64,000 nucleotides of DNA, taken from NCBI RefSeq assembly GCF_017875235.1, contig NZ_JAGGMI010000014.1:1-64000 (forward strand), read 5' to 3'. The translations under genes and the position numbers were made by a program. Source of the DNA: Asticcacaulis solisilvae (GTDB lineage Bacteria > Pseudomonadota > Alphaproteobacteria > Caulobacterales > Caulobacteraceae). Below the pieces are notes generated by a model. It saw only the letters and a program-made list of their open reading frames with translations, made no database searches and was not told where the DNA came from. The stretch's first letter is position 1. Each line of letters begins with the position of its first letter. Below are positions 1-21,026 of the stretch, one piece after another.

Positions 1-36
1 AAGGCCAAAGTTGGCACTTGTGACGATCGCTACCAT
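1..36 (-). CDS. Start of an unidentified gene cut by the left edge (possible flagellin-like)
   Basis: On the minus strand an ATG at 36-34 opens a frame that runs to the window edge and encodes MVAIVTSANFGL. It is preceded by AGGGGA six bases upstream, a good Shine-Dalgarno site. Only 12 codons are visible, so no family can be assigned. Flagellins and some hook-associated proteins begin with a short segment of the type M-x-x-I-x-T-N, and this gene lies directly beyond a flagellar cluster, so a flagellin-like product is possible. That is inference from position and a weak N-terminal resemblance. The 111 bases between this start and the next gene hold nothing else recognisable. Confidence 0.35.
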   Translation of the reverse strand, partial: MVAIVTSANFGL

Positions 37-147
37 GATGAATCCCCTGTCGCACGGCCCCAAGCCGCACCCTTCAGAGAACTAATCGAACAATCGACAC
101 AAATGTTTAGGCCAAACCTGTGGATAAGTCACAGCAAACGACGAACA

Positions 148-1287
148 TTACACACGCCACCGCGAAGCCATCGCAACCATTGCATCCGAAATCGTAGAAC
201 CACTATCTCCAACCGGCGTGTTCAACGTCAATTGACGAACCCGTTGCGCAGACTCATCGTCGCCGTCATGTGCGAATAGCAGGGACTTCGCCAGGGCACC
301 TGAAAAACACCGGCGGTCCAGACGCAAAGCCGTTTCGGTGCGGTCGCGTGCACCCGCGATATTACCATCGAGAATGTCCAGAACCGCCAGGGCGCCATGG
401 CTTTCGGAGAAGGTGTCATCGAGCGCTAGCGCGTGCTCGAATATGGTGCGCGCCTTGGCGTGGTCACCTTTGGCGAAATGCGCCCAACCGGACGCAATCC
501 AGGTGCCAAGATGATTTCCGAAACCAGCCGCGCTCTTGTCGAGATAATCCGCTCCGTCATGCACATTGCCGGCCGCCATCAGCGCCAACCCTTTACCCAA
601 CAAATTTCGCGCACTGTCCGGCCGGGCAGAAAGGCCACTCTCAAAATAGTTCAAAGCATCGTCGATATTGTTTTTCTGCAGAGTAAGCATTCCAAGCGTG
701 GAAAGCCCCTCCGCAGTCCCTGCGGACTTGGAGGCGTAAGCGAGCGCCAGTTCCGGCATCTGTGAATCTATGGCAACCAGGGACAGCGCACCCAACAGGC
801 CTTCATCCTGCGGATATTGCTCGGCAAGCCCCGTCCCCAGCTCCAATGCTTCTTCCAGAAGACCTTGCCGATGCAAGGCTTGCACCTTTAGCGCTGCAGC
901 GCCAGGCACGGCGGACAGGGTCGCCTCGTCCAGCACATCCGCAGCGCGCCTGTCATTCCCAAGCATGGTCGCGGACCATGCCAGGTTAAATCTGATAGCG
1001 GCCTCGTCTGGCAGCGCCAGGAATAAAACCTCGAAAACCTCGAGCGCGTCGTCAAACCGGTCCAGGCGCAACGCAGCCATGCCCCTAAGGTTGAGCAAGG
1101 CCAGGGGCAATTGCGTGATGGCTTCGTAACGTCCCAGCAGGTCAATGGTCTTGGCGGCTTGACCGGCTTCCAGAGCCGTAGAGGCGGCTTCAGCGATGAG
1201 ATTGAGATTTCCGGAGTCGTGATCCAGATACCCCAATAGACGCGAAAGCTTGTCCTGGCTGACACTCACCTCCACCGATACGTTCAT
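148..1287 (-). CDS. Tetratricopeptide-repeat protein, flagellar cluster accessory
   Basis: A 379-residue protein built almost entirely of helical TPR-like repeats: the segments around 60-100, 200-240 and 265-330 show the alternating A/G/Y/L spacing of TPR helices (for example LTLQKNNIDDALNYFESGL). No signal peptide or membrane segment is seen, so it is probably cytoplasmic. The ATG at 1287 faces away from fliQ, so the two share an upstream region of 166 bases. TPR proteins act as scaffolds or, in type III secretion, as chaperones. A role in binding export substrates of the neighbouring system is inferred from context, and the substrate is unknown. A second, smaller TPR gene lies at 6039-6602. 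Confidence 0.75.
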   Translation of the reverse strand: MNVSVEVSVSQDKLSRLLGYLDHDSGNLNLIAEAASTALEAGQAAKTIDLLGRYEAITQLPLALLNLRGMAALRLDRFDDALEVFEVLFLALPDEAAIRFNLAWSATMLGNDRRAADVLDEATLSAVPGAAALKVQALHRQGLLEEALELGTGLAEQYPQDEGLLGALSLVAIDSQMPELALAYASKSAGTAEGLSTLGMLTLQKNNIDDALNYFESGLSARPDSARNLLGKGLALMAAGNVHDGADYLDKSAAGFGNHLGTWIASGWAHFAKGDHAKARTIFEHALALDDTFSESHGALAVLDILDGNIAGARDRTETALRLDRRCFSGALAKSLLFAHDGDDESAQRVRQLTLNTPVGDSGSTISDAMVAMASRWRV

Positions 1288-1375
1288 TTTTTTTCCCCCA
1301 AAAGTCCACCGCTCAAATCACCGGCGCAACACCAAACAGCGTAATATCCCGCGTGATGGCAGGCAAGTCACCATC

Positions 1376-1404
1376 TTCAGAAGCTGTTCCTTGAAATTTA
1401 ATAT
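1376..1404 (+). promoter_or_regulatory. Possible sigma-70-type promoter of fliQ-fliR-flhB-flhA
   Basis: TTCAGA (1376-1381) and TAATAT (1399-1404) are separated by 17 bases, about 50 bases upstream of the fliQ ATG. The match is read by eye. No clear FliA-type (TAAA/GCCGATAA) or sigma-54-type element was found in the same interval. Confidence 0.3.
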
Positions 1405-1453
1405 GGATTGTGCCACGAATCCGCCGTCGAGTGCGCGTGCCGGGGGGACACTG

Positions 1454-1723
1454 ATGGGGGCAGATCATGCTGTGGGGCTTATTAATCAGCTCCTGTGGAA
1501 CGCTGCCTTAATTTGCGCGCCTGTGCTGATTGTCATCATGATCGTCGGCCTGATCGTCAGCGTTTTCCAAGTGGCCACGCAGCTACAGGAAATGACACTG
1601 ACCTACGTGCCAAAACTTTTGGCCACGGTCGTCGTACTGATCATTGTCGGCCCGTGGATGATACACAAGATCGCGCAATTCGCGGTTTCGATGATTCGGC
1701 TGATACCGTCGTTGGGGCACTGA
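1454..1723 (+). CDS. fliQ: Flagellar export gate protein FliQ
   Basis: Encodes an 89-residue protein of the FliQ/SctS family, with two long hydrophobic hairpin helices (about 16-38 and 50-75) and the family pattern GLIVSVFQVATQLQEMTL between them. FliQ joins FliP and FliR in the helical export-gate channel of the type III apparatus. A longer upstream frame is open from 1250, but the ATG at 1454 is preceded by a GGGGGGA tract and gives the normal family length and N-terminus (MGADHAVGLINQ), so it is chosen. fliR follows after seven bases. The only oddity is that fliQRflhBA is on the opposite strand from fliP. Confidence 0.93.
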   Translation: MGADHAVGLINQLLWNAALICAPVLIVIMIVGLIVSVFQVATQLQEMTLTYVPKLLATVVVLIIVGPWMIHKIAQFAVSMIRLIPSLGH

Positions 1724-1730
1724 CGGCGCC

Positions 1731-2495
1731 ATGACGTCTCCGGATCTTGTTGGTCGTGTCTGCGCGTGTTTGCTGCTGAGCCTCCGGGTAGCGCCCGTCT
1801 TTGCCATGGCGCCCCCGTTTTCGCTTGTCCGCACGCCCGTGATTTTCCGGGTTGCCTTCGGACTGGCTATCACTGCCTGTCTCGTCGCCGCAGATCCTCA
1901 CCTTACGCAGGTCGGCGACCTGAGTCCCGGATACCTGATCGTCGCGGCCGCGCGTGAGCTGATGTTGGGCATCGTGTTCGTAATGGCCTTTCACCTGATG
2001 TTCGGCATGTTGTATCTGGCTGGTCGGACACTCGACATCCAGGCTGGCTTTGGCATGTCCATGCTTGTCGATCCAACGAGCCAGGCCCAGACGCCTCTTG
2101 TCGGAACCCTCTTCGCCTATGCCGCCGCCGCGGTGTTTTTCGCCATGGGCGGACACTATGACCTTTTGCGGCTGATGGAGGCTTCGCTGCATGCCATGCC
2201 CCTGGGTGAAGGCTACCTGCAGCCCGACAGCCTGGCGCGTGTCGCGATGTTCATGGGAATCCTTTCAAGCACAGGGTTCGGAATAGCCGGCGGCGCCATG
2301 CTCATCCTGTTTCTCGCCGACATGGCCATCACCCTGCTGTCGCGCACCGTGCCCCAGATGAATGTCCTTGTTTTGGGCTTTCAAGTGAAGACAATCCTTC
2401 TGTTGCTCGTGCTCCCCATGACTCTGGGCGCATCGGGCGCCTTGCTCGCACGCATGACCACGCTGACCCTTGAAGCCTTGCCGGGGTTGCTGTGA
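1731..2495 (+). CDS. fliR: Flagellar export gate protein FliR
   Basis: 254 residues with the hydrophobic profile of FliR/SctT: about six membrane helices and the conserved segment MLVDPTSQAQTPLVGTL in the middle. FliR is the single central subunit of the FliP5-FliQ4-FliR1 core through which rod, hook and later substrates pass. The gene starts seven bases after fliQ, and its TGA overlaps the ATG of flhB (TGATG at 2493-2497), indicating translational coupling. Length and topology are normal for the family. Confidence 0.93.
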   Translation: MTSPDLVGRVCACLLLSLRVAPVFAMAPPFSLVRTPVIFRVAFGLAITACLVAADPHLTQVGDLSPGYLIVAAARELMLGIVFVMAFHLMFGMLYLAGRTLDIQAGFGMSMLVDPTSQAQTPLVGTLFAYAAAAVFFAMGGHYDLLRLMEASLHAMPLGEGYLQPDSLARVAMFMGILSSTGFGIAGGAMLILFLADMAITLLSRTVPQMNVLVLGFQVKTILLLLVLPMTLGASGALLARMTTLTLEALPGLL

Positions 2496-3571
2496 TGGAA
2501 GCGCAATCAGACCTGAACAAAACTGAACCACCTACACCGTTCAAGCTGAGCAAGGCGCGCGAGAAGGGATCTGTCGCCCGCGGCATGGACCTGGGGTTTA
2601 CGGTCAGCCTGGCGGCTCTGATCGGTTATCTCTGGATGTTCGGGCCGCGCCTGAGCGACAGCCTTGCCACTGCCGCTCAGCGCACTCTGGTCAGCGCCGC
2701 GACCGTCACCACGGGCCCCAATGAAATCCTGCACCTGGTTGGTAGCCTGCTGACCTCGGTCGCCCAGCCGATGCTCTTTATGTTTGGCGTGATCTTCGTC
2801 TCCGTCCTGGTGTTTGAAATCGTCCAGACCGGCTTTGTGTTCTCTTTCGCTCCGCTGACGCCTAATTTCAGCAAACTCAATCCTGCAAACGGATTCAAGC
2901 GGGTGTTTTCGGTCCGGCAACTGGTCGAAACCGGCAAGAATGTCGCCAAGTTGGTGGTATATGCCATCCTCGCCTACCTCGCCGTTATGCAGGGGCTGAA
3001 GCTGGCGGTCCGGGGCATCTCCGACGCCAGGCAACTGGCCGCCGTCATGCAGGATACGGCCTTCCATCTGCTGGTTCTCTTTGTCGGCGCCGCCGTTGTT
3101 ATCGCGGCCATAGACCAGCTTATCTCCCGCCGTGACTTCTTCAAGCGCATGCGGATGACGCGGCACGAGACCAAGCGCGAGTCGCGGGACCGCGAAGGCG
3201 ATCCGCGGTTCAAACAGAAACGCCGCCAGACCCACCGCGAATATGCGAAACTGAGCAAAAGCCTCAAGAACGTCCGCGGCGCCGATATCCTCATCGTCAA
3301 TCCGACCCATTATTCGGTCGCGCTCAAATACGATCCGCGCACCATGGGCGCGCCGACCATAGTTGCCCAGGGTGCCGACCAGTTGGCGTTGCGCCTGAAG
3401 CGGCTGGCCTTTCTTTATGGCGTTGTCACCGTCGAGAACCGCGAATTGGCCCGGGCGCTTTACCACAGGTGCGAGATCGACCGGGAAATTCCCGACGCCT
3501 ACTTCCGCCCCGTCGCCAACATCTATCGCCAGGTCCGCAAACGGCCGGCAGCACAAACCCACGCGTCCTGA
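2495..3571 (+). CDS. flhB: Flagellar export switch protein FlhB
   Basis: 358 residues of the FlhB/SctU family: four N-terminal membrane helices (to about residue 215), then a charged cytoplasmic domain. The autocleavage motif NPTH is intact with Asn at residue 269, followed by YSVALKYDP. Cleavage between N and P converts the export gate from rod/hook to later substrates. The chosen ATG overlaps the fliR stop; a GTG one codon earlier is an alternative. FlhB works with the hook-length protein, for which a divergent candidate lies at 11285-12133. The intact cleavage site suggests substrate switching is still under selection. Confidence 0.93.
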   Translation: MEAQSDLNKTEPPTPFKLSKAREKGSVARGMDLGFTVSLAALIGYLWMFGPRLSDSLATAAQRTLVSAATVTTGPNEILHLVGSLLTSVAQPMLFMFGVIFVSVLVFEIVQTGFVFSFAPLTPNFSKLNPANGFKRVFSVRQLVETGKNVAKLVVYAILAYLAVMQGLKLAVRGISDARQLAAVMQDTAFHLLVLFVGAAVVIAAIDQLISRRDFFKRMRMTRHETKRESRDREGDPRFKQKRRQTHREYAKLSKSLKNVRGADILIVNPTHYSVALKYDPRTMGAPTIVAQGADQLALRLKRLAFLYGVVTVENRELARALYHRCEIDREIPDAYFRPVANIYRQVRKRPAAQTHAS

Positions 3572-3573
3572 AC

Positions 3574-5604
3574 ATGCTCAAGAAATTTTTCAACAATAAT
3601 CACGATCTGGTCCTCGTTGGCGGTGTCATCGCCATCCTGCTGATCCTCTTCTCGCCGATTCCAGCGGTGTTGCTGGACCTGCTCATTATCTCGAACTTCG
3701 CCTTCGCAATGATGGTCCTGCTGATGACCTTCTACGTCGACAAACCCGTGTCGTTCTCGACCTTTCCGTCGCTGCTGCTGGTCGGCACGCTTTATCGCCT
3801 GGCCCTTAACGTCGCCGCCACCCGCCTGATCCTGACCGACGGCCATGCCGGCCAGGTGATCGGCGCCATCGGCGCCTTCGCCGTTCAGGGCAGCTTCGTG
3901 ATCGGTCTTGTCGTCTTCTTCATCCTGGTCATCGTGCAATACGTCGTGGTGACGTCCGGCGCCCAACGCGTCTCGGAAGTTGCCGCCCGCTTCGTCCTCG
4001 ATGCGGTGCCAGGACAACAGATGAGCATCGACGCCGACCTGAACATGGGTCTCATCGACCAGGACGAAGCCAAGCGCCGGCGCAAAGCGATCGAAAAGGA
4101 AGCGGCCTTCTACGGCGCCATGGACGGCGCCAGCAAGTTCGTGAAGGGCGACGCCATTGCCGGCATCATTATCCTTCTGATCAATATCATCGCCGGCTGG
4201 ATCATCGGCGTCGCCCAGATGGGCATGGACTGGATGACCGCGCTTCAGACTTTCAGCCTCCTGACCATCGGCGACGGCATCGTCACCCAGGTCCCCGCCC
4301 TGATCATTTCGACGGCGACCGGCATCATCGTGACCCGGTCCTCGGCCGACCGCCAGCTCAGCGCCGAAATCATGGCGCAACTGGCTTCGGTGCGTAAAAT
4401 ACCGCTGATCGTGATGGGCGCCCTGCTCATCCTGATGCTGCTGCCCGGCATGCCCAAATGGCCCATCGCCATCCTGGCATTGCTCGCCGCAGCCATGTGG
4501 CTGTCGTCGTCCCGGAAGAAGGCGCAAAGTCCCGAAAAAGAAACCGCAACGGATGAAGATGCCGGCCGGGAGAGCGGTAAGAGCGCGGCCCCGCCTGTTG
4601 TTCAGGTTACGCTTGGGCGCGACCTCGGTCTGCATTGGAGCGCCATAAAGCCGCTTTTGAGCGAACGCATCGAAGCCTTGCGCACGCAACAGGAAGCGGT
4701 TTCAGGGTTTGCATTCCCTCCCCTCACCTTCCAGGATAATGCCAAGCTTGGAGCCAACGATTACGAGGTACTGATCTACGGTGCCCGCTATGCCCAGGGG
4801 CGACTATATCCTGATAAAACGCTCGCCATTCAGACGTCCGCCGCCACTGCGGCCCTGCCCGGCCTGCAAACCAGAGATCCCGCGTTTGGTTTACCGGCGG
4901 TATGGATCGAACAGGATCAGCGTGATCTCGCCGAACGGTCCGGCTACACCCTGGTCGATCCCATAACGGCGCTCATGACGCATCTGGGCGAGGTGCTGCG
5001 CAGTGAAGCCGCGCAATTGCTGTCACGCGCCCATGTTACGATAATGTTGGAAGGTGTTCGCAACCGGCAACCCGGGGTGATCGAAGAGTTGATTCCATCC
5101 ATCATAACCGTAACGGACGTGCAGCGTGTTCTGCAAAATCTCTTGTCCGAAAATGTTTCCATTCGAAATATAGACCTTATCGTCGACGCACTGGTCGACG
5201 TCGGCCGCCATACCAAGGACCACGGCGACTTGACCGAGGCCGTCAGGCAGAAGCTCAACCATGGTATCTGCCACGACTTAAGGGGGAATAGCGACCAATT
5301 GGCTGTCCTGAGCCTCAACCCGCGCCTGGAGGCGCAGATTACGGACGGAATCCGGCGAAGCGACGGCCGCACCGGTTTCGTTATTGAACCGAGGCTGGCG
5401 GAACAGTTGCTTCTAAAACTGATGCCACAAGCCGACACCATGATTCAGCAGGGCCTCGCGCCTGTGCTGTTGTGCGGCCCTGAAATCCGCCGCCACCTCA
5501 AGACCTTTACCCGCCGGACGATTCCACGTCTGGCGGTGGTCTCGGTCAATGAGGTGCCGTCTTCGATCGACCTGAAATCTTTCGATGTGGTGTCCGTGGA
5601 GTAG
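3574..5604 (+). CDS. flhA: Flagellar export gate protein FlhA
   Basis: 676 residues of the FlhA/SctV (FHIPEP) family. About eight membrane helices occupy the first 330 residues and a large cytoplasmic domain follows. The family signature TLYRLALNVAATRLIL lies at residues 72-87. FlhA forms the nonameric ring below the FliPQR core that receives chaperone-substrate complexes. The frame is open further upstream inside flhB, but the ATG at 3574, two bases after the flhB stop, gives the normal N-terminus (MLKKFFNNNHDLVLVGGV). The gene ends seven bases from the convergent small gene at 5612, and no terminator hairpin is visible between them. Confidence 0.95.
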   Translation: MLKKFFNNNHDLVLVGGVIAILLILFSPIPAVLLDLLIISNFAFAMMVLLMTFYVDKPVSFSTFPSLLLVGTLYRLALNVAATRLILTDGHAGQVIGAIGAFAVQGSFVIGLVVFFILVIVQYVVVTSGAQRVSEVAARFVLDAVPGQQMSIDADLNMGLIDQDEAKRRRKAIEKEAAFYGAMDGASKFVKGDAIAGIIILLINIIAGWIIGVAQMGMDWMTALQTFSLLTIGDGIVTQVPALIISTATGIIVTRSSADRQLSAEIMAQLASVRKIPLIVMGALLILMLLPGMPKWPIAILALLAAAMWLSSSRKKAQSPEKETATDEDAGRESGKSAAPPVVQVTLGRDLGLHWSAIKPLLSERIEALRTQQEAVSGFAFPPLTFQDNAKLGANDYEVLIYGARYAQGRLYPDKTLAIQTSAATAALPGLQTRDPAFGLPAVWIEQDQRDLAERSGYTLVDPITALMTHLGEVLRSEAAQLLSRAHVTIMLEGVRNRQPGVIEELIPSIITVTDVQRVLQNLLSENVSIRNIDLIVDALVDVGRHTKDHGDLTEAVRQKLNHGICHDLRGNSDQLAVLSLNPRLEAQITDGIRRSDGRTGFVIEPRLAEQLLLKLMPQADTMIQQGLAPVLLCGPEIRRHLKTFTRRTIPRLAVVSVNEVPSSIDLKSFDVVSVE

Positions 5605-5611
5605 CTGCCGC

Positions 5612-5956
5612 TCAGGATGCCGCCGCGCGCAACTCTCCGACACAGCGGCGAATAAGTACCGATCCCGCAACATCGGACTCCAGCGCCTCGGTGACCTTTT
5701 CCACGACCTGCTGAAACTTGGAATCGTTGACAAGATCGGAACCAAACTGGTCGGCCAGAATATTCTGGATGAGCGCCCTGCCCAGCTGATGATCGTCAAC
5801 GCCTTCCAGCGCTGCCAGGGCATGGAGACTGTCTACCCATCCGGCTTTGGCTTCCACTGTCGCTTCCTTGCGCCGGGCTCCGGATGATTTCGACCGCTCC
5901 AGCATGCGTTGCCGCAGCACCATGACAAGCCGATCAATGTGAGATACTGGATCCAT
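5612..5956 (-). CDS. Small protein of unknown function at the end of the flagellar operon
   Basis: A 114-residue, mostly helical, charged protein that I do not recognise. It lacks a signal peptide and membrane segments. It is the last gene of the long minus-strand run, 82 bases after the small TPR gene, and converges on flhA. It resembles neither FlgJ (no rod-binding or muramidase pattern) nor FlgM or FlgN in any way I can support. Its position makes a cytoplasmic chaperone or assembly factor of the secretion system plausible, but this is inference only. Start ATG at 5956. Confidence 0.6.
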   Translation of the reverse strand: MDPVSHIDRLVMVLRQRMLERSKSSGARRKEATVEAKAGWVDSLHALAALEGVDDHQLGRALIQNILADQFGSDLVNDSKFQQVVEKVTEALESDVAGSVLIRRCVGELRAAAS

Positions 5957-6038
5957 TTATTTTACAGGGCCTTCAGCATTCAAAATGGCGCGGAGCGGTC
6001 GGATTGCGAAGCGAGTAAATCCCAGAAGCGCAAAGCCG

Positions 6039-6602
6039 TCAGTGCTTGGTGTCCTTAAACGCATATTGCCGCAATAGGAAGTTCGCATCGGACTCCGCCT
6101 CCGGCGCCGGAGCGGAAGTCGTCCGCTTCGCTTTCATTTCTTCCACCAGCAAGGCCATGTTGCCGTTCAACGGCGGGAGCACCGTATTGCGTTCGATACC
6201 TTCCTCAAGCAGCGTAATCGCGGCATCGAATTCGTCGATTACCATCTTGTTCAGCCCAAGTACGAAAAGCTTGAGTGGGTCCTCGGCCGGCAGTTCCATT
6301 AACGGCAGCCAGGTCGATTGCGCCGCCGTGACATCCCCGGATGTCAACTCCAGAAATCCGAGTTGAAACCGCGCCAGGTCGAAGCCCGGAGCAAGACCGA
6401 CCGACTTTTCCATGGCAAGCCGGGCTTCGGAGTACCGCTCCTGGCTGCACAGGACGGATCCGCGCAGGAAGTGCAGCCGCGGATCATTGCCGAAACGCTC
6501 CACGAGTTGATCCAAGGTCCCTAGCGCCCTGTCGTCATTGCCCTGTATCTGTTCCAGCGCAGGCTGAAGCAATTCGTCCGGTACTACCTCATTGTCGTTC
6601 AT
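6039..6602 (-). CDS. Small TPR protein, flagellar cluster accessory
   Basis: 187 residues with about three consecutive TPR-like units (roughly 20-130; for example DPRLHFLRGSVLCSQERYSEARLAM split over two helices). No export signal. It starts eight bases after fliA, so it belongs to the same operon. Size and repeat number resemble class II type III secretion chaperones of the LcrH/SycD type, which hold translocator subunits, but that similarity is structural and not tested. The C-terminal 40 residues (after about 145) are Ala/Pro-rich and then end in a short hydrophobic-aromatic tail. Confidence 0.72.
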   Translation of the reverse strand: MNDNEVVPDELLQPALEQIQGNDDRALGTLDQLVERFGNDPRLHFLRGSVLCSQERYSEARLAMEKSVGLAPGFDLARFQLGFLELTSGDVTAAQSTWLPLMELPAEDPLKLFVLGLNKMVIDEFDAAITLLEEGIERNTVLPPLNGNMALLVEEMKAKRTTSAPAPEAESDANFLLRQYAFKDTKH

Positions 6603-6610
6603 AACGGGTC

Positions 6611-7384: not shown

Positions 7385-8114
7385 CGACGCCCTCGAGCAC
7401 AAGACTCCACCCGTCGATCAGTACGAACATCAACACCTTGAGCGGCAGCGACAGTGTCGATGGCGGCACCATCATCATGCCCAGGGCCAGCAATATGCTC
7501 GATACCACCAGATCGATCAGCACAAAGGGCAGCAGGACCACGAAGCCGATCTTGAAGGCGACCCGAAGCTCATTCAGCATAAAGGCAGCGGACAACTGCA
7601 TGAGGCCGACGTCGCTTGCCTTGGCCGGCAGAGGCTGCCTGGAAATCTCGTAGATCGTCTTGATGTCCTGGTCGTGCACCTGCCGCAGCATGAACTCGCG
7701 CATCGGCCCAGACCCCTTGTCGATAGATTCCTGTACGGAAATCGACCCGTCAAGAAACGGCTGAAGGGCGTCCTTGTTCACCTTGGTCACCACAGGCGAC
7801 ATGATCAGCAGGGTAAGAAAGAGCGAAAGGCTGACCAGCACCTGGTTGGGCGGCGTCTCGGGCATGCCGAACGCATGACGCAACATGGACAGCACAACGA
7901 CGATGCGCAGAAACGGCGTCATGCAGATGACCAGGGCCGGGATCAGCGCCATCAGGCCGAGGATCAGGGCGATGCGCACGGTCTCCGCCGTCTTCACGGG
8001 GTCGGCCATGACAGACGCCGCCGGCACGGCCATGTCCAGCGCGAATGCCGATGCCGGAACCGCTGATAATGCCAGTCCGGCCAGGACCATGAACAAAAGG
8101 GGCTTTCGCATCAT
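7368..8114 (-). CDS. fliP: Flagellar export gate protein FliP
   Basis: 248 residues with a cleavable signal peptide (1-25, ending ASA-FA) and the FliP/SctR body. Conserved segments are LVICMTPFLRIVVVLSMLRHAFG, read in two halves, and PFVLIDLVVSSILLALGMMM near the C-terminus. FliP builds the pentameric part of the export channel with FliQ and FliR, which lie on the opposite strand at 1454-2495. The start ATG overlaps the fliO stop by four bases. Length and motifs are normal. Confidence 0.95.
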   Translation of the reverse strand: MMRKPLLFMVLAGLALSAVPASAFALDMAVPAASVMADPVKTAETVRIALILGLMALIPALVICMTPFLRIVVVLSMLRHAFGMPETPPNQVLVSLSLFLTLLIMSPVVTKVNKDALQPFLDGSISVQESIDKGSGPMREFMLRQVHDQDIKTIYEISRQPLPAKASDVGLMQLSAAFMLNELRVAFKIGFVVLLPFVLIDLVVSSILLALGMMMVPPSTLSLPLKVLMFVLIDGWSLVLEGVVGSFR

Positions 8115-8901: not shown

Positions 8902-8922
8902 AATCTTCCCGGTGTACAGGTA

Positions 8923-10892: not shown

Positions 10893-10904
10893 ATCAAAGC
10901 TCCC

Positions 10905-13910: not shown

Positions 13911-14616
13911 GACGCGCTCCGACCGGTTGCGACATCTGCTCCAGCAAGGCGCCAAGCCGCCCCCATTGCTGGTCGATCCCCACGTCCAGGGTGCCGAGTT
14001 TCAACTGGATACGACATTCACCGCTTTTCAGGCCGGCCAGCGCCACGATACGGAGTCCGGAGGCACCAAGCGCCTGCGTCAGCGCGGACAGGGCGGCTTC
14101 GTCGCCAAAATCCGATTGCGACACTTCGATCTGCAGAATGGAATGCGCCTCCAGCGTGCGCAGGTGCTGCGTGACAATCGCGCTCACAAGCGCGGCACGC
14201 CCCTTCTCCGCACCCAGAACCGCCGCCAGGCCTTCCCGCGCCAGAGCCGGCGCCAACCGTTCAAGGCCCGACACGGCGGTTGCGAAAACGCCCGCCGCCT
14301 GCCGGATGCCGCCTTCCAGGCGCGCCAGCATGGCCGCGCCGGCGTCCTCGGCGGCGCGGCGGCCCGCCTCCCGACCTTCTGCCTCGCCCTCCTGGAACGC
14401 GGTACGGACCTGCTTACGCAGACCGGCCAGCTCAGCCTCTTGCTTTTCGAGCCGTTCAAGCAAGGCTGCGCGTTCGTCAAGCAGCTTTTGCACCTCGGGA
14501 TCAACAGCTGGCTCCGCCTCCCGGGTTCTCTGAGGGACGGCCCCGCCCAGGGCGACGCTCAACGACAGAACATCGCTGCCGGCGGCCTGACTGTTCCGTT
14601 TCAGAATCCGGTTCAT
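13903..14616 (-). CDS. fliH: Flagellar export ATPase regulator FliH
   Basis: 237 residues with the usual FliH layout: a variable N-terminus, a glycine/alanine and glutamate-rich coiled coil (about 60-135, with EGEAEGREAGRRAAEDAG) and a C-terminal globular domain. FliH dimers act as the peripheral stalk of FliI and dock it on FliN. The conserved N-terminal tryptophans that bind FlhA in enterobacteria are not evident. Located between the FliG-like gene and fliI, overlapping both, which matches the standard fliF-G-H-I-J order. Confidence 0.83.
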   Translation of the reverse strand: MNRILKRNSQAAGSDVLSLSVALGGAVPQRTREAEPAVDPEVQKLLDERAALLERLEKQEAELAGLRKQVRTAFQEGEAEGREAGRRAAEDAGAAMLARLEGGIRQAAGVFATAVSGLERLAPALAREGLAAVLGAEKGRAALVSAIVTQHLRTLEAHSILQIEVSQSDFGDEAALSALTQALGASGLRIVALAGLKSGECRIQLKLGTLDVGIDQQWGRLGALLEQMSQPVGARHD

Positions 14617-15026
14617 GTGCCGTCTCCGAACAGGGTGCGCAACCGTGCATTCGTCGTGTCCTGACGACCCGTCGTGACAGCCGTCCGGCCCTGCGGGTGC
14701 GCCAGCTCCGCGGGCAGCGACAGGGTCAGTTGACGCAAGGCAGCAATGGCTTCCCGCGTCATGTGGTACGCACCAGCCCCGTCCATTTGCTGGTTCAGAG
14801 TGCGCGCGGCCAGCCAGTCCGAAAGGCCGGCCGTATTCATGGCCTGCGGCGCCGCTTCGACGTCAAAAACGTCGGCAACGCCGCCGTAGGCGGCCAGCAG
14901 AGACCGGACCTGGGCAGCCGCTTTGGGGTCGAGCATGCCCAGAACCGCCGCCATATCCTCCGGCGTCGTCGCGGCCAGTTCGGCCACCAGCCTGCGCAGC
15001 GCCTTGTCAGAGCCGGTCGACGGCAT
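14613..15026 (-). CDS. Very short FliG-like protein (rotor protein remnant)
   Basis: About 137 residues, in the position normally taken by fliG (about 330 residues) between fliF and fliH. Its first 70 residues show helix patterns reminiscent of FliG N-terminal or middle repeats (EDMAAVLGMLDPKAAAQVRS). Nothing corresponds to the C-terminal torque domain with its charged helix that contacts the stator. The ATG at 15026 has GGAG seven bases upstream and overlaps fliF by 20 bases; a TTG at 15044 is less likely. It may only link the MS ring to the FliM-like and FliN proteins, or it may be an unrelated replacement. The FliG name rests mainly on position. Confidence 0.55.
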   Translation of the reverse strand: MPSTGSDKALRRLVAELAATTPEDMAAVLGMLDPKAAAQVRSLLAAYGGVADVFDVEAAPQAMNTAGLSDWLAARTLNQQMDGAGAYHMTREAIAALRQLTLSLPAELAHPQGRTAVTTGRQDTTNARLRTLFGDGT

Positions 15027-16287
15027 TGCCTTCTCCCCGCTCAAGCAAGACCTGGAACCTTTGCGCGAATTCCCGGCGCTCTTCTTCGGTCAGGGTGCGC
15101 ACCGGCGGCCTCGCCCTGTTGCGCAGGACCTGCAGGGCGGCAAAGGCCAACCCCGCAAGGACCAGGACGACCACAACGCCCCAGAAGGTCGGTCCAAAGA
15201 TATTGCGGGATGTCGTGGACGCCGCGGCCGCGCCCGTCGCCGCGACGGTGCGGCCGCTTTCGGCCGGCACACCGCCCGCGAGGCCGCTTTCGGCGGCCGT
15301 CACCACGATTTCGTCACCCAGTTCAGGCGCGATGTCGATCGCCGCCGCCGCGGCAACCCGGATATTCTGCTGCGCTTCGGCGTTGCGCGCCGCCGGGCCG
15401 GCTATACTCACCTTCAATTGGAAGTTCCGCTGGCCCGCGGTCCATTGCAGGAAGGGATCCGAGGGCTCCTCCTCGGCGTCTGCGTCATCGGACTCGACCG
15501 GGCGGAACACCGGCAATGCCGTGACCCTGACCGTGAACTCCTGACCTGGATAGGTCGCGAACAGTGTCTGGCGCACCTTTTCGGCGAAAAACACCTCGGC
15601 GGCATGCTGTGCCGGCGACTGGGCGGTCGATGTTTCGGACGATATCTCGGTGCTGATGACCTGGCCTTCCCCGTCCAGCACGACGACGTCGGCAGCATTA
15701 AGTTCAGCGACGGATGCGGCCACAAGGCGCTGAATGCCCAGGACGGCGCCCGTCGACAGGCTGCGGCCGGGCTTGAGCGTCAGGGCGATGGAGGCCTTGG
15801 GCGACCGCTTGTCATCACGGAAGATGGTGTCTTCCGGAAGCGACAGGTGGACACGCGCGGTATCCACAGCGTCGATCGCCATGATCGTCCGGGACAGCTC
15901 CCCCTGCAGGGCGCGCTGATAATTGATCTTCTGGGCGAACTCGGTCAGGCCGATGTCCGATTTGTTGAACAGTTCGAACCCGACCGAACCTTTCAGCGGA
16001 AGGTCCTGGCTGAGGATGCCGAGCCGGGTTGCATCGACCTTGTCGGCGGAGACAAGAATGGTCGTCCCGTCGTCGGCGAGACGATAGGGCACCTTCTTCT
16101 TGTCCAGTTCGGCAACGATCGTCGCGGCGTCCGTTGGACGCAGATTGGAAAACAGGATGACATCCGGCTTACGCAGGAACACAAAATACACCGACCCGAG
16201 CAGGAAGACCGCAATGACGACAACGCCCACCGCCAGGAGTATCTGGCGCTGCGGCGGCATCGAACGGATCTTATCGAAACTATCCAT
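15007..16287 (-). CDS. fliF: Flagellar MS-ring protein FliF (short)
   Basis: 426 residues, about 100 fewer than typical FliF. The first membrane helix is at about 15-38 and the second at about 369-388. Between them lie the secretin-like ring-building domains, with conserved VPYRLADDGTTILVSADKVD and GSVGFELFNKSDIGLTEFAQ. The short cytoplasmic tail (about 389-426) ends EFAQRFQVLLERGEG, where FliG normally binds. FliF forms the inner-membrane ring that houses the export gate. The missing length is mostly in the periplasmic linker. It overlaps the shortened FliG-like gene. Confidence 0.92.
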   Translation of the reverse strand: MDSFDKIRSMPPQRQILLAVGVVVIAVFLLGSVYFVFLRKPDVILFSNLRPTDAATIVAELDKKKVPYRLADDGTTILVSADKVDATRLGILSQDLPLKGSVGFELFNKSDIGLTEFAQKINYQRALQGELSRTIMAIDAVDTARVHLSLPEDTIFRDDKRSPKASIALTLKPGRSLSTGAVLGIQRLVAASVAELNAADVVVLDGEGQVISTEISSETSTAQSPAQHAAEVFFAEKVRQTLFATYPGQEFTVRVTALPVFRPVESDDADAEEEPSDPFLQWTAGQRNFQLKVSIAGPAARNAEAQQNIRVAAAAAIDIAPELGDEIVVTAAESGLAGGVPAESGRTVAATGAAAASTTSRNIFGPTFWGVVVVLVLAGLAFAALQVLRNRARPPVRTLTEEERREFAQRFQVLLERGEGNAVDRL

Positions 16288-16290
16288 GAT

Positions 16291-16608
16291 CTAGAGCTGC
16301 GTCCGCATGATTTCCTGGTAGCCTTCCACCAGGCGGTTGCGCACCTGCAGCATCAGTTGCAGCGACAGGTGCGACTGTTCCAGCGCGAACATGACCTGGT
16401 GCGGCGGAATGGTGTCGTCCAGCACGAAAGACTTGACGAGCGCGTCGGCCGCATTGGCCTTCTCGCTGACCCGGTCGATGCCGTCGGAGAACAGCTCGGC
16501 GAACGAAACGCCGGAGCCATGCGTCGCCACAGGCCGCTGCAATGCCGCTAATTCGGGTGTAGCCGCCGCGCCCAGGGCGCTGATGGCCTCGATCGGACCT
16601 GTACTCAT
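16291..16608 (-). CDS. fliE: Rod/MS-ring junction protein FliE
   Basis: 105 residues of the FliE family. The conserved C-terminal half reads FAELFSDGIDRVSEKANAAD and then MFALEQSHLSLQLMLQVRNR with a terminal VEGYQEIMRTQL. FliE links the MS ring to the rod and is among the first exported substrates. It abuts flgC directly and precedes fliF by three bases, the classic flgB-flgC-fliE-fliF order. Confidence 0.93.
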   Translation of the reverse strand: MSTGPIEAISALGAAATPELAALQRPVATHGSGVSFAELFSDGIDRVSEKANAADALVKSFVLDDTIPPHQVMFALEQSHLSLQLMLQVRNRLVEGYQEIMRTQL

Positions 16609-17025
16609 CTACTTTCCCATTTCCAAAGCTTTGACATACATCTGGCGGGCCGTGCTCATGGCCACCATGTTAGCTTCATAGGCCCGTGCCGTTTTGACCA
16701 TCAGCACCATTTCGGCGGAATGATCGATTGCCGGATACGAAACATAACCGTCGGCGTCGGCCAGCGGATTGCCCGGTTCATGCACCCGGCGAGGCGTCCC
16801 TTCCACGGCTTCGACACCATAAACCGACACACCGTTGAGTGCGGTCTGCGGCCCCGCCAGTTGCCCCTCGAACGACGTCCGGGGCCCCGACAACAACCGC
16901 ATGGCGCGATAAGGCTGGCCCGACGCGGTCTGGACCGTATTCATATTGGCCAGGTTGTCCGCGATCACTTCCAGACGCCGCCATTCGACGTCCAGCCCGG
17001 TCTTGCTGATTGCCATCGCCTTCAT
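16609..17025 (-). CDS. flgC: Proximal rod protein FlgC
   Basis: 138 residues with the rod-family N-terminus (MKAMAISKTGLDVEWRRLEV followed by IADNLANMNT) and C-terminus (VLMVKTARAYEANMVAMSTA). FlgC is a structural subunit of the proximal rod. The frame is open back to 17160 through flgB, but the ATG at 17025, two bases after the flgB stop, yields the normal length and is chosen. Confidence 0.93.
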   Translation of the reverse strand: MKAMAISKTGLDVEWRRLEVIADNLANMNTVQTASGQPYRAMRLLSGPRTSFEGQLAGPQTALNGVSVYGVEAVEGTPRRVHEPGNPLADADGYVSYPAIDHSAEMVLMVKTARAYEANMVAMSTARQMYVKALEMGK

Positions 17026-17027
17026 GT

Positions 17028-17366
17028 TCAGGATCCCACAACAATACGCATATGCTGCATCTGGCGCGACAGTATCTCTACCAGCGCGGCGTACCGCGCC
17101 GATGTCATCGACGCGGTCGCCATCTGCAGGTCCAGCCGCGAACTGCCTGTTTCCTGCCACGAAGGATCAGCTTCTATCCGCGGCGTGACAGCCTGGATGG
17201 CGCTTTCGCCCCGTGCGGACGCGGCGATCAGTTCCTGTTCGAACGACACCCGCAGGGCGCGGTAGCCGGGCGTGCTGGCATTGGCCAGGTTCTGCGCCGT
17301 CACATCGGCGCGCGCCGCCAGGCCGTCCAGGGCCTTAAGCGCCATGATTGACGTCAGATCCGACAC
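17028..17366 (-). CDS. flgB: Proximal rod protein FlgB
   Basis: 112 residues with the rod signature AQNLANASTPGYRALRVSFE near residue 24 and a C-terminal helix (RYAALVEILSRQMQHMRIVV). FlgB is the most membrane-proximal rod subunit with FliE and FlgC. It begins 14 bases after flgI and runs into flgC. Length is a little below the usual 130-140 residues. Confidence 0.93.
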   Translation of the reverse strand: MSDLTSIMALKALDGLAARADVTAQNLANASTPGYRALRVSFEQELIAASARGESAIQAVTPRIEADPSWQETGSSRLDLQMATASMTSARYAALVEILSRQMQHMRIVVGS

Positions 17367-17380
17367 CCGTATCTCCTCCT

Positions 17381-18487
17381 CTACTGAACAACCAGATCGG
17401 CGTGCAAAGCTCCGGCAGCCTTGATCGACTGCAGGATGGCAATGATGCCGCGCGTATCGACATTGGCCTGGTGCAGGGCCTGGACCAGATCACCGACCGT
17501 GGTATTGGGGAAGCGCACGACCGCGTCCCTGCCTGGCGTAACCTCAATCTTCTTGCTGGCGACGACCAGCCCGTTCCAGGCGCCGTACTCGGCTATGAAC
17601 GGCTGGGTGGCGTCATTGTCCTGGCTGATCGACACCTTGATATCGCCCTGGGAAACGACAACGCTCGAAATTTGCACCGAACCGCCGGCAACGACCGTGC
17701 CGGACCGTTCGTTGACCACCACAACGGCCCGCTGGTCAGGCGTCACAGCGACGTTTTCGACCCGCGCCACGAAGCCATAGACGTCCCGGCCCGCGGTCCG
17801 CGCATCGATGACCACGGTGGCGGAGTCGGCCACGCGCGCCAGGCGCATACCCATGGCGGCATTGATGCCGTCCTTGATGCGCTCGGCCGTCATCGTGTCC
17901 GGCTCCTTCAGGATGAAGGTCAGTTCGCCGCCCGCATTAAGCAGGCTGGCGGCCGCCGGCATTTCGATCGTCGCGCCCCCCGGCAGCACGCCGGAGGTCG
18001 GATAGTTCTTCTGCTGACGGTTCTGCTGGGCGTCGAAGCGGTAGCCACCCACGACCAGCGGTCCCTGGGCCAGGGCATATGTACGCTGGTCCGGTCCCAT
18101 CAGGGGCGTCATCAGCAGGGTTCCGCCGACAAGGCTACGGGCATCGCCAATCGAGGAAACGGCAATATCGACCTTGTCGCCCAGATGCGCCGACGGCGGC
18201 AGCACGGCAGTGACCATGACGGCCGCCACGTTGCGGCTGTGGACATCATCGGTCGATACGTTCGCGCCGAAACGGCTGAGCACATTGGTCAGGGCCTGGC
18301 GCGTGACCTTGCTGCCGGGGGAATCGCCCGAGCCGGAGAGCCCGGTCACAATGCCGTATCCGACCAGCGCGTTTTCGCGCCAACCCAGGAACCGGCCCAT
18401 ATCCTTGACGCGCACGCTTTGTGCCAGGGCCTGCATCGGCGCCAGAAACAGGCCGATCGCCAAAAGGACAGACAATATCCGCGTCAT
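17381..18487 (-). CDS. flgI: Flagellar P-ring protein FlgI
   Basis: 368 residues with a Sec signal peptide (1-22, ending ALA-QS) and the strongly conserved FlgI start VRVKDMGRFLGWRENALVGY. Further conserved blocks include GDKVDIAVSSIGDARSLVGG and the C-terminal DLVQALHQANVDTRGIIAIL. FlgI assembles in the peptidoglycan layer as a bushing around the rod. The ATG overlaps the flgH stop by four bases. Sequence and length are normal. Confidence 0.95.
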   Translation of the reverse strand: MTRILSVLLAIGLFLAPMQALAQSVRVKDMGRFLGWRENALVGYGIVTGLSGSGDSPGSKVTRQALTNVLSRFGANVSTDDVHSRNVAAVMVTAVLPPSAHLGDKVDIAVSSIGDARSLVGGTLLMTPLMGPDQRTYALAQGPLVVGGYRFDAQQNRQQKNYPTSGVLPGGATIEMPAAASLLNAGGELTFILKEPDTMTAERIKDGINAAMGMRLARVADSATVVIDARTAGRDVYGFVARVENVAVTPDQRAVVVVNERSGTVVAGGSVQISSVVVSQGDIKVSISQDNDATQPFIAEYGAWNGLVVASKKIEVTPGRDAVVRFPNTTVGDLVQALHQANVDTRGIIAILQSIKAAGALHADLVVQ

Positions 18488-19083
18488 GGCTTGCCTGCCT
18501 CGGCCAGCCGGCGCTTCTTCTCTGTCCGCTCGTCACGGGTCAGTTCGGGCTTCCCGTACACGATCCTGGCGTCGGCCAGAGAGGTCGACAGGACGACGTT
18601 TGAACTGGCGATGTCGGCGCGCCGCACCCGGCCGCTCAGGAAGATGCGGACCTTGCGGCCGTTGATGTTCATCAGTTGCTCACCGGAAACATACAGGTCG
18701 CCATTCGGCAGCACGTCGTCGACCACGACGCTGATCCGCGCGACCATATGGCCGGAATGTCCGGTCTGGTCGCCGCTTCCCAGCGAGTAGCTGCCCTGCA
18801 CGCCCACCTGGTCGTTGTTGCCGTTGCCGTTCTCATACCGGCCGGACAGGCCGAGGGTGCCGTTGTTCGATTTCTTGGATGCGTCGGTGGCCTGGGACGA
18901 CTCGAAGATGAGAACCGTCAGACTGTCGCCGACCCTTTCGGCCGTGCGGTCCGAGGCCAGCGACGACCAGGCGTTCGGCCTGAACAGGTCATCGGCGGAT
19001 GCACCGCCCGCCAGGGTGAATAGTATTGCCGTCGCAGCCCACAGCCGCAACGCCCGCCCCCTCGCCTTTCCCCCCGTTGTCAT
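18484..19083 (-). CDS. flgH: Flagellar L-ring protein FlgH without lipobox
   Basis: 199 residues matching FlgH: LFRPNAWSSLASDRTAERVG, then GDSLTVLIFESSQATDASKK and the closing ASSNVVLSTSLADARIVYGK. FlgH forms the outer-membrane ring and is normally a lipoprotein with a conserved Cys at the signal cleavage site. Here the signal region (about 10-30, ATAILFTLAGGASA-DD) contains no Cys, and the whole protein has none, so lipidation is impossible from this start. Overlaps flgI and flgA by four bases. The family call is firm; the anchoring mode is the oddity. Confidence 0.92.
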   Translation of the reverse strand: MTTGGKARGRALRLWAATAILFTLAGGASADDLFRPNAWSSLASDRTAERVGDSLTVLIFESSQATDASKKSNNGTLGLSGRYENGNGNNDQVGVQGSYSLGSGDQTGHSGHMVARISVVVDDVLPNGDLYVSGEQLMNINGRKVRIFLSGRVRRADIASSNVVLSTSLADARIVYGKPELTRDERTEKKRRLAEAGKP

Positions 19084-19499
19084 CTGGCCTCCCCAGAATA
19101 AAGCACACTCATCACCTTGCCGTCAGCCGCCCGGACGAACAGTTTCCGGCCCGGATTGGCGGGCTGCAGCGCCTCGACTTCACGCTGGACCAGCACAGGC
19201 CCGGCCTGAACCGTCACATACAATTTCTGCCCCGGGCTGATACTGGCCATCAGCGGCACCGGAACTTCGGCGACGATGTCCCCCGGCGCCAGGTCGCGGA
19301 TCAAACGGGCGGCCCGCATATTGGCGTCATACCGCACCGCCGCTTCAGGCGGATTTCCGCCACAGTCCGCGGCGGCGAAATCCGCCGCAGAGGGCACCGC
19401 GCCGGCGCTGAGCGGGCGCACAGCCATTACGCAGCGTTCCGATGCCCGGCTCTCGAACGCTACGAACGCCAACGCAAGAAACAACCCCTTCACCAACAT
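19080..19499 (-). CDS. flgA: P-ring assembly chaperone FlgA (short)
   Basis: 139 residues: a signal peptide (1-19), then a SAF-like domain with AARLIRDLAPGDIVAEVPVP and a C-terminal beta domain (SPGQKLYVTVQAGPVLVQRE). FlgA is a periplasmic chaperone for FlgI polymerisation. Enterobacterial FlgA is about 220 residues, so this is a compact version seen in various alphaproteobacteria. It sits between flgG and flgH, consistent with its role. Confidence 0.82.
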   Translation of the reverse strand: MLVKGLFLALAFVAFESRASERCVMAVRPLSAGAVPSAADFAAADCGGNPPEAAVRYDANMRAARLIRDLAPGDIVAEVPVPLMASISPGQKLYVTVQAGPVLVQREVEALQPANPGRKLFVRAADGKVMSVLYSGEAR

Positions 19500-19505
19500 C
19501 GATCT

Positions 19506-20282
19506 TTATCTCTTAAGATCGTTGGCGATGGACATAAGCTGGTCGCCGGCCTGGACGATCTGGGCATTGGCGGAATAGGTCCGCTGCATCAGCATCAGCG
19601 ACACCATCTCCTTGGCCAGGTCGACATTGGAGGTTTCGACATAGCCCTGCGCCAGGACACCCGCCCCTTCCACGCCTGGCGCTGAGCGGATCAGTTCCGC
19701 ATCTTCTGCCGGCTGGAAGGCACCGCCTGTGATGGCTTTAAGGCTGGCCGGGTCCATGTCCTGAACCAGTTCGATCCGGCCGATTTCCAGCGGTTCCACT
19801 CCGCCTTCAACTGTCGCGGTCACACGGCCATCCATGCCGATCGCCAAACCCCTGGCGTCACGCGGCACCGAAATCATCGCCTGAAGAGGCATACCGTTAC
19901 TGGCAGCAAGGAAACCGTCGTTATTGACCTTCAAAGTCCCGCCCCGCCATAGCAGGGTCTGCCCGGCCGGCCCCATCAATTCGATAAAACCACTTCCATC
20001 GATGGCAAGGTCCAGTTGCGAACCCGTCTGACTGAGCGTGCCCTGAGCGAAATCCACCGTCGATCCGGTCAACCTGACGCCCTGGAACACCGGCTGGCCG
20101 CGATCCAGAGACGTGCCGGAACCAGCATCCTGCACACCTTGCCCTGCCATTAACTGGGAAAACTGCGCCCGGCTTTGTTTGAAGGCAGGCGTGTTCATAT
20201 TGGCAATATTATTGGCAACGATTTCCAGCGCACGCTGCTGGCTATCGAGTCCCGTGGCCCCGATATGGAAAACCCCGTTCAT
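19506..20282 (-). CDS. flgG: Distal rod protein FlgG
   Basis: 258 residues, normal for FlgG. The N-terminal rod motif is LEIVANNIANMNTPAFKQSR, and the C-terminus has YVETSNVDLAKEMVSLMLMQ followed by RTYSANAQIVQAGDQLMSIA. FlgG builds the distal rod that crosses the P and L rings. It begins nine bases after flgF. Confidence 0.94.
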   Translation of the reverse strand: MNGVFHIGATGLDSQQRALEIVANNIANMNTPAFKQSRAQFSQLMAGQGVQDAGSGTSLDRGQPVFQGVRLTGSTVDFAQGTLSQTGSQLDLAIDGSGFIELMGPAGQTLLWRGGTLKVNNDGFLAASNGMPLQAMISVPRDARGLAIGMDGRVTATVEGGVEPLEIGRIELVQDMDPASLKAITGGAFQPAEDAELIRSAPGVEGAGVLAQGYVETSNVDLAKEMVSLMLMQRTYSANAQIVQAGDQLMSIANDLKR

Positions 20283-20291
20283 ACTCCCCCC

Positions 20292-21026
20292 TTACGTCTG
20301 ACCGAACGTCGTAATCGCGCGGCCCATCAATTCATCATAAACCATCATCAGCCGTTGGCCTGACTGCGCCTCGCGCAGGGCGGCCATGACCGTTATCATT
20401 TCCGTGCCCAGGGAAACGTTGGACGTTTCAAGCGATCCCTGGACAACGGACGCATTTTCCAGCACCGAAACCAGCGCCTCCGGTGCGCTGTACAGCCCAT
20501 TTTCCGCGTAGGTCAGGGCCGCGGCATCGGCGATATCGACAATGCCGATTCTGCCGACAGCCTCACCTGCCTGCAGTACTGTGCCGTCGGTCAATACGGT
20601 ATAGTCGCCGGGCTTGAGGACAAGGTCGCCGCCACCACTCTGCTGCAGCGCCGCACCTTCGGCACTCACCAGCCGCCCCTCCGTATCGCGCTGAAACTGG
20701 CCGTGGCGGGTGTAAAGTACCGTGCCACCCTCCGTGCGGACGGTGAAGAAACCCGCGCCGGAAATCGCCATATTGTCTGGATTATCCGTAACTTGCTGCT
20801 GTCCGGGCGTGGAATCTATAGCCACTTGGGCAGCGATCTGCGCGGCCTGCAAGGCGCTGCCGTCGCTCTTTGCGAGACCGGCATCGGGCACACCCAGCAC
20901 CGCCTCAAAACTGACGGCGCGCTTGTAACCCGGTGTCGTTACATTTGAAATATTTTGGCCAGCAACTTCTAAGTGTCTTTCGACACGCGACAAAATGCTA
21001 CCAACACTGCTGACGAAGTCCCCCAT
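20292..21026 (-). CDS. flgF: Proximal rod protein FlgF
   Basis: 244 residues. The rod motif EVAGQNISNVTTPGYKRAVS lies near residue 20, a beta-rich centre follows, and the C-terminal helix is SLGTEMITVMAALREAQSGQ. It is the first gene of the long minus-strand flagellar run. No strong Shine-Dalgarno site is seen before its ATG. A candidate promoter lies about 50 bases upstream. Confidence 0.92.
   Translation of the reverse strand: MGDFVSSVGSILSRVERHLEVAGQNISNVTTPGYKRAVSFEAVLGVPDAGLAKSDGSALQAAQIAAQVAIDSTPGQQQVTDNPDNMAISGAGFFTVRTEGGTVLYTRHGQFQRDTEGRLVSAEGAALQQSGGGDLVLKPGDYTVLTDGTVLQAGEAVGRIGIVDIADAAALTYAENGLYSAPEALVSVLENASVVQGSLETSNVSLGTEMITVMAALREAQSGQRLMMVYDELMGRAITTFGQT

Follow-up and report, generated by a model that had tools for sequence, protein, structure and literature searches.

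A reduced flagellar operon shared by alpha- and betaproteobacteria is linked to giant YD-repeat proteins

Arguments on how a flagellum becomes a secretion device have mostly rested on a single example, the injectisome. Buchnera carries hook-basal bodies, remnants of its flagellum, that bear no filament and are thought to export, and the study that is cited on the flagellar apparatus of Lysobacter is reportedly that of Fulano et al. (2020, in CSBJ). According to excerpts of PMC9927559 and PMC7277350, the non-flagellated strain Lysobacter enzymogenes OH11 is without fliC, fliD, flgK, flgL, fliG, fliM, motA and motB, with its apparatus nonetheless able to export FlgD and a test flagellin; its genes are reported to be required for antifungal toxin secretion (an excerpt of PMC9927559), and a passage of PMC13288982 cites a CSBJ paper for the Lysobacter antimicrobial toxins. 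PMC9380563 concerns an inner-membrane structure related to the flagellar type III secretion system. Here we describe a flagellar operon in Asticcacaulis solisilvae (genome G000; 5.0 Mb, 34 contigs), located within a stretch of 64,000 nucleotides, hereafter the window, that forms the left 64 kb of contig NZ_JAGGMI010000014.1 (C14). From its genes, we consider it close to certain that the encoded apparatus would be a non-motile, flagellum-derived exporter, and we think it probable that this is a type III secretion system tipped by a hook, with a giant YD-repeat protein taking over from flagellin. Abby and Rocha reported incomplete loci of flagellar origin in 2012, this operon not being among those in the available part of their paper (PMC3459982), and no description of this operon together with YD giants was found in open-licence PMC papers; the tie between the two is new here.

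The flagellar cluster spans positions 1,454–21,026 of the window; its plus-strand block is fliQ-fliR-flhB-flhA, all other genes (from 5,612 onward) make up a minus-strand block, and all of its frames are open. It was annotated by Pfam scans of 30 open reading frames (ORFs) together with NCBIfam and home-made hidden Markov models (HMMs). FliQ, FliR, FlhB, FlhA, FliP, FliN, FliI, FliF, FliE, FlgH and FlgI lie above the Pfam cut-off, as do FlgD (frame 10,905–11,303) and five rod/hook-family proteins, named FlgB, FlgC, FlgE, FlgF and FlgG via HMM score, size and order; FlgA falls slightly below it, FliH and FliJ give weak matches, and profile recognition of FliK and FliJ is weak or lacking. Iterated HMMs and position underlie the FliO and FliG-like calls, and position the FliK call. 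Additional members are a FliA/WhiG-type sigma factor, two TPR proteins and a small conserved ORF, C0. An earlier note on this stretch had proposed a hook-basal-body and export cluster, and the profiles confirm its gate, ATPase, MS ring, rod, LP rings and hook. The rotor is reduced as that note described, with a FliG-like protein of 137 residues that has no torque domain (14,613–15,026, its gene abutting the end of fliF) and a FliM/SctQ-like protein of 258 residues with a single SpoA domain (8,923–9,699; PF01052, the FliN, SctQ and FliM models all scoring under cut-off). FliF is short as well (15,007–16,287; 426 residues), matching PF01514 only and missing the C-terminal Pfam domain. Pfam scans of the cluster gave no match to FliG, none to motA/B, fliL, che, flgK, flgL or fliD, which the note had also failed to see, and none to fliC.

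Of the 148 other genomes in the family sample, just three have a close relative of the short FliF (44–50% identity), each time in a syntenic cluster (that of G053 is cut by its contig). When named genomes were scanned more widely with an alignment of four FliF sequences, 66 loci emerged, which were profiled with HMMs built on seeds from both E. coli K-12 and the window. The same operon is found in 65 of these, to the extent of each contig, with carriers in the Caulobacteraceae, Sphingomonadales, Burkholderiales, Chromobacteriaceae and Methylophilaceae; the other locus (L114, from a Bacillota metagenome-assembled genome, MAG) has a normal FliG and was rejected as a family member, and no Lysobacter record is among the 66. 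Once the window inversion is undone, the gene order reads fliQ, fliR, flhB, flhA, flgF, flgG, flgA, flgH, flgI, flgB, flgC, fliE, fliF and the FliG-like gene, followed by fliH, fliI, the J- and K-position genes, flgD, flgE, the FliM-like gene, fliN, fliO, fliP, sigma factor, TPR gene and C0. This one order is maintained across alpha- and betaproteobacteria, the exceptions being inversions of flgHI (L069, L072) and of fliQ/fliR/flhA (L081). Over the 65 loci, fliF and fliE were each counted 65 times, the FliG-like gene 64, fliI and flgI 63, flgH 62 and flgE 60. Canonical fliG, fliM, fliL, fliD, fliC, flgL, motA, motB, cheA and cheW were found in none, and flgK was never the best hit, within flanks of at most 10 kb and with motA/B, fliL, fliD and flgL having no positive control in the set.

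The earlier note had looked to FlhA and FliI trees to place the apparatus, and in an FlhA tree the 43 operon sequences constitute a single clade (100/100), separate from 12 canonical FlhA and three lower-identity copies (one of which, L173, groups with the canonical ones). The clade also stands apart from two rows presumed to be SctV from their low identity, such rows being few and long-branched; long branches meet near the root, which leaves the rooting and the placement of any single long row uncertain. Alphaproteobacterial operon copies nest beside Paraburkholderia and Cupriavidus, which suggests that the operon was transferred between proteobacterial classes.

Relatives of the FliG-like protein match the N and middle domains of FliG only, the betaproteobacterial ones comprising both and the shorter alphaproteobacterial ones apparently the N part only. 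A second flagellar set, for which the earlier note had wished to see the whole genome searched, is present: a second FlhA and the genome's only FliG_C gene lie on contig C5, with flagellins on C3 and C2. FliG_C was found in 42 of the 49 operon genomes searched (the window's genome and 41 of 48 others) and was absent from seven, the search leaving out 17 of the 66 loci (mostly MAG contigs and near-duplicate species, along with the non-member L114) and, in addition, L070. In none of 44 placed genomes does a FliG_C gene lie near the operon on the same contig, the nearest, judged by eye, being ~157 kb away in G163. Weak second FliG_C matches (25–27 bits) in ~435-residue frames were seen on C17 of G173 and C55 of G178, off the operon's contig. 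Flagellin_N, searched for in nine carrier genomes, has no match in six of the seven carriers that lack FliG_C, namely Sphingorhabdus Alg239-R122, Croceicoccus estronivorus, a Sphingomonadales MAG, an uncultured Erythrobacter, Ramlibacter monticola and Altererythrobacter CC-YST694; flagellins are present in the remaining one, an Asticcacaulis MAG that is probably incomplete. Because neither FliG_C nor flagellin was found in those six assemblies, motility cannot, on their gene content, be the role of the apparatus there, with the proviso that these drafts too may miss genes.

The left edge of the window is a true contig end, and what stands there is not the filament genes that the earlier note had thought might lie just outside it. 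The first 36 bases carry, on the minus strand, the initial 12 codons, start codon included, of a giant YD/RHS-repeat gene (MVAIVTSANFGL), which continues past the edge and is absent from that note's account; filament genes directly to the left were accordingly rejected, and in the relative G071 the 9 kb beyond fliQ are without a flagellar HMM match. The window's initial 95 bases recur at the end of contig C26, whose 8.4 kb are taken up by the remaining giant frame (2,788 residues, open), and at the start of contig C4. Since both contigs share them, the genome may have two giant copies, for which C26 may be a single collapsed contig, and the join is ambiguous; a unique join of C26 to the window was rejected, the in-window start codon being independent of it. 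Positions 1–130 of C4 (L162) hold a second giant start with an identical promoter box.

In G071 and G142 as well, the operon has a very long YD/RHS frame beside it. The G071 giant has 4,428 residues with 23 RHS repeats, FG-GAP, LysM and a C-terminal Tox-HNH-HHH domain (Pfam); YD repeats were detected in the giant of the window's own genome. A DUF6531 match was also recorded close to a giant start. The start of the giants is conserved as MVAIxxG: the start codon occupies the same column in all 31 aligned N-termini, 28 of which begin MV. By eye, no Sec signal was seen in the giants, and a PDB search with the N-terminus returned nothing convincing. A C-terminal toxin domain was found in one of five giants scanned (Tox-HNH-HHH) and in none of the four other C-termini, one of which has an adhesive domain. 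Small genes follow some giants, two of them without a Pfam match.

With the first 99 residues of the G071 giant as query, a giant start was matched in 40 of 45 operon genomes (G000, G053 and 43 of the 48 to which the loci led; G053, G071 and G142 also appear as L053, L054 and L056). Giant frames of at least 300 residues occur in 39 of the 45; of 51 such frames, 38 have at least 3,000 residues, and the longest has 12,840. In 21 of the 45 genomes a giant (frames under 300 residues excluded) lies within 40 kb of fliF. In two more genomes, G167 and G176, the contig with the operon ends in the giant's first codons, and the very short start-only frames there were rejected as orphan signals, being giants cut at contig ends. 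Two further frames of 58 and 60 residues, at C27:69,452 and C71:14,826 of G194 (L111, Chromobacterium vaccinii), match only the giant's first 54 residues and are either cuts of the same kind or orphan starts.

The association recurs in three separate samples. In the family sample, 3 of 149 genomes have a giant start, all of them operon carriers, against 0 of 145 operon-free genomes (Fisher 7e-6; 3e-4 excluding the window's own genome); a fourth carrier, with no giant match, is only 80% complete. Among 300 Burkholderiales, where an operon call required a FliF score above 400 bits and five candidates were scored per genome, ten pass this threshold, 11 have a giant start at E <1e-10 and eight are in both groups (p 5e-12; 2.5e-9 excluding two already-known genomes). 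In G373, scored as a non-carrier, a family FlhA lies at 7 kb from the giant, which would give a corrected table of 9/11 vs 2/289; weak giant matches in G210 and G414 (E 1e-4 to 6e-6) were not counted. Three of 72,556 plasmids carry a family FlhA (49.9–55.1% identity; the next 42.6%). A giant start was found on six plasmids, these three included. One, pMSMB2035, is complete and conjugative and bears the module from fliQ through a 4,897-residue giant, with no transporter gene listed between the two. On the complete plasmid of Undibacterium YM2 (L178:4384-43230), a 12,948-residue giant lies 3 kb from fliQ; this giant ends in an ice-binding-like adhesive domain (pAdhesive_15), and the next gene has a pretoxin HINT domain. 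In the Variovorax plasmid, only FlhA and a giant start were seen.

Giants also share a promoter element. The promoter of FliA (sigma-28) is TAAA-N15-GCCGATAA, and 74 bases upstream of the giant start the window has a motif (84–110, minus strand), CTAAAC-N17-GAT, whose spacing agrees with it. Of 32 giants, 29 have CTAAAC within the preceding 300 bases, both copies of this genome included (L126 and L129, with cut upstream sequence, were excluded), whereas shuffled controls gave a mean of 1.6 and a maximum of 7, and random stretches carried it in 3.9% of 960 cases. A GA at one fixed offset is present in 26 of 28 box-bearing upstream regions, the selection of which had used CTAAAC alone. Among 20 further upstream fragments (~140–400 bases, scored for box presence only), 13 contain CTAAAC, against 4 of 289 control genes; one of the fragments duplicates an earlier sequence, and the box of L189 and L190 stands more than 200 bases from the start. 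Within the first 25 kb of the window, the giant's box is the sole minus-strand copy, with one plus-strand copy at 21,669. The sigma factor of the operon would recognise the CTAAAC box; flagellar logic, in which late FliA-controlled genes encode the exported filament, seems to be kept with the giant in flagellin's place.

A mechanism can be proposed on this basis, in which assembly, secretion, chaperone roles and biological target are all inferred. The export gate would consist of FliQ (1,454–1,723; PF01313, E 2.8e-25; start inferred, ORF opening at 1,250), FliR (1,731–2,495; PF01311, E 2.7e-42), FlhB (2,492–3,571; PF01312, E 8.4e-102) and FlhA (3,559–5,604; PF00771, E 4.2e-229, and tree; start inferred, ORF opening at 3,469), all on the plus strand, and, on the minus strand, FliP (7,368–8,114; PF00813, E 2.5e-69), next to which is a FliO-like protein (8,111–8,566; position and an iterated HMM matching 58 of 65 loci, no Pfam support). 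Together with the ATPase set of FliI (12,576–13,955; PF00006, E 1.9e-76), FliH (13,903–14,616; weak PF02108, E 0.0019, iterated HMM 63 of 65 loci) and a FliJ-like protein (12,130–12,579; weak PF02050, E 0.024, and position), and with a reduced SpoA ring of the FliM-like protein and FliN (8,563–8,901; PF01052, E 1.1e-19), this gate would feed a channel. The channel would be made of the short MS ring, a rod (FliE, 16,291–16,608, PF02049; FlgC, 16,609–17,160, Pfam rod domains, its ORF start perhaps over-long; FlgB, 17,028–17,366, PF00460; FlgG, 19,506–20,282, Pfam; FlgF, 20,292–21,026, Pfam), the P ring (FlgI, 17,381–18,487; PF02119, E 3.4e-109) and L ring (FlgH, 18,484–19,083; PF02107, E 2.7e-31), with FlgA (19,080–19,499; PF13144, E 7.3e-5, iterated HMM 60 of 65 loci), and a hook (FlgE, 9,696–10,892, Pfam and NCBIfam FlgEFG; the 132-residue FlgD-like hook cap at 10,905–11,303, PF03963, E 2.4e-15, and HMM; and the 286-residue FliK-position protein, 11,285–12,145, with no Pfam match). 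Torque ring, stator, filament junction, cap and filament would all be missing.

The FliA/WhiG-type sigma factor (6,611–7,402; Pfam Sigma70_r2/r4, best NCBIfam TIGR02479, below its cut-off) would then turn on the late substrate, the giant, which would leave via the hook and either remain on the surface or depart from it, as adhesin or toxin carrier. Possible chaperones are the two TPR proteins, one of 187 residues (6,039–6,602; TPR Pfams, 34 of 65 loci, the SctY-chaperone model far under cut-off) and one of 379 residues beside the giant (148–1,287, minus strand; Pfam TPR, with HMM matches in 17 of 65 loci, a count affected by often-cut flanks and unspecific TPR matches). C0 (5,612–5,956; 114 residues, homologues in 12 loci including the window, no Pfam match) is a candidate anti-sigma factor, chaperone or small substrate; it begins like MDPxSxxDxL and sits after the TPR gene, as it does, judged by eye, in Methylophilaceae.

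That the giant is the main product of the apparatus we regard as likely, in the face of several points that weigh against it. Five of the 45 operon genomes lack a giant match, and operon without detected giant (G221, G270) as well as giant without detected operon (G445, with a 7,719-residue frame; G493, 401 residues) occur among the Burkholderiales. The box was discovered in the same 32 sequences used for its count, and exact CTAAAC is missing from seven of the 20 further giants. The genome samples are phylogenetically non-independent; the Foldseek E for the FliG-like model is just 0.027, and MgtE_N is the commonest single-sequence Pfam match of these proteins (15 of 45). It would be extreme for a type III channel to pass a polymer of 13,000 residues, and giant secretion is a conclusion drawn from genes only. 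The two giants of G445 (C1:1,093,263 and 3,010,335; L193, L194) both have the CTAAAC box and belong to the further 20; the second FlhA of that genome is only 33% identical, and a diverged exporter or a lost operon may be the reason that none was detected.

Of the alternatives, the one that fares best is a sub-case of our own reading, differing from it solely in the fate of the giant, so that the odds of the two overlap: the hook would be a surface adhesive device with the giant held at its tip and not released. The adhesive domain of the Undibacterium giant fits this, whereas the nuclease-toxin domain of the G071 giant does not, and we consider the sub-case rather unlikely. Less likely still is a non-motile exporter whose true substrate is something else (such as C0, or hook subunits alone), with the giant using another surface route. 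The domains of the giants (RHS, FG-GAP, LysM) are generic, and no operon was detected in the giant-bearing G445 and G493; against this stand co-occurrence in three separate samples, adjacency, the shared FliA-like box and a plasmid module without a listed transporter gene. We give very little weight to the idea of a second, motile flagellum for which the host's main flagellum supplies FliG, stators and filament. Most carriers searched, the window's genome included, do have a FliG_C gene to lend, and a borrowed full-length FliG, one of the refuting cases in the earlier note, keeps a small probability in such motile hosts; the other case, flagellin, hook-associated and mot genes directly adjacent, was looked for and not found. 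The six assemblies without FliG_C and flagellin, a fliG slot filled by the operon's own short protein in 64 of 65 loci, the short FliF and the separate FlhA clade all speak against borrowing. A functionless, decaying relic, as the reduced rotor genes might suggest, is equally improbable given open frames, a gene order kept across two classes, occurrence on plasmids (one of them conjugative) and a dedicated sigma factor with its promoter box.

The preferred reading, an exporter with the giant as its late product, retains the earlier note's suggestion of a secondary secretion or adhesion device in place of a motility organelle, which the 65 stripped loci of 66, FliG relatives confined to N and middle domains, the six carriers above and the module on a complete conjugative plasmid support. 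Beside the operon, positions 21,191–47,384 of the window hold plant-polysaccharide degradation genes (GH3, arabinofuranosidases, alpha-L-fucosidase, GH62, GH97, GH9, acetylesterase, GH42 and GH2); a 942-residue gene upstream of flgF was rejected as an export substrate, being a GH3 glycosidase.

The operon family looks like a second, separate conversion of a flagellum to secretion, one in which hook and outer rings were kept and motor and propeller discarded. It offers a genetic test of the need for a C ring when nothing rotates, as well as an export route for giant YD-repeat proteins and a promoter box with which to find further substrates; since the operon is carried by named isolates from Caulobacter, Sphingomonas and Methylophilaceae, these ideas are directly testable. 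We lean, with less assurance than for the exporter itself, toward a third type III secretion lineage, independent of the injectisome, that lost torque and filament, kept rod, rings and hook, and in which the giant took over both of flagellin's parts, that of late FliA-class gene and that of exported product. Stages of the conversion would then be visible in the FliG series, and the operon would be a plasmid-spread module and an export route for very large proteins (12,948 residues on a complete plasmid). As it stands, the apparatus is a variant of flagellar type III secretion, and a claim to a separate class would need secretion data.

Compared with known systems, the operon resembles the injectisome in being a non-motile exporter built from flagellar parts, and its FliM-like protein shows SpoA only, as does SctQ (in the available part of PMC3459982). 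It differs in keeping rod, hook, P and L rings and FliE/FlgB/FlgC; identity with an injectisome was rejected, since FlgH and FlgI are present, no secretin Pfam was found among the cluster ORFs scanned, and the family's FlhA does not group with the two presumed injectisome sequences. In contrast to the remnant in Buchnera, it is a separate operon, plasmid-borne too, in a genome with a second flagellar set. The giants resemble the RHS/YD polymorphic toxins of Zhang et al. 2012 (excerpts of PMC3482391) in their RHS repeats, DUF6531, LysM and one nuclease tip, and differ in the MVAIxxG start, the FliA-like box and the link to a flagellar exporter, the last of which those excerpts do not describe for RHS proteins. 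The nearest described case is the motorless flagellar exporter of Lysobacter. As far as the excerpted descriptions of OH11 go, and comparing by description only, nearly the same gene set is missing and the apparatus still exports; OH11 is also reported to be without flgB and fliE, both of which the window operon has, its export genes reportedly do not form one operon, and a YD giant does not figure in those descriptions.

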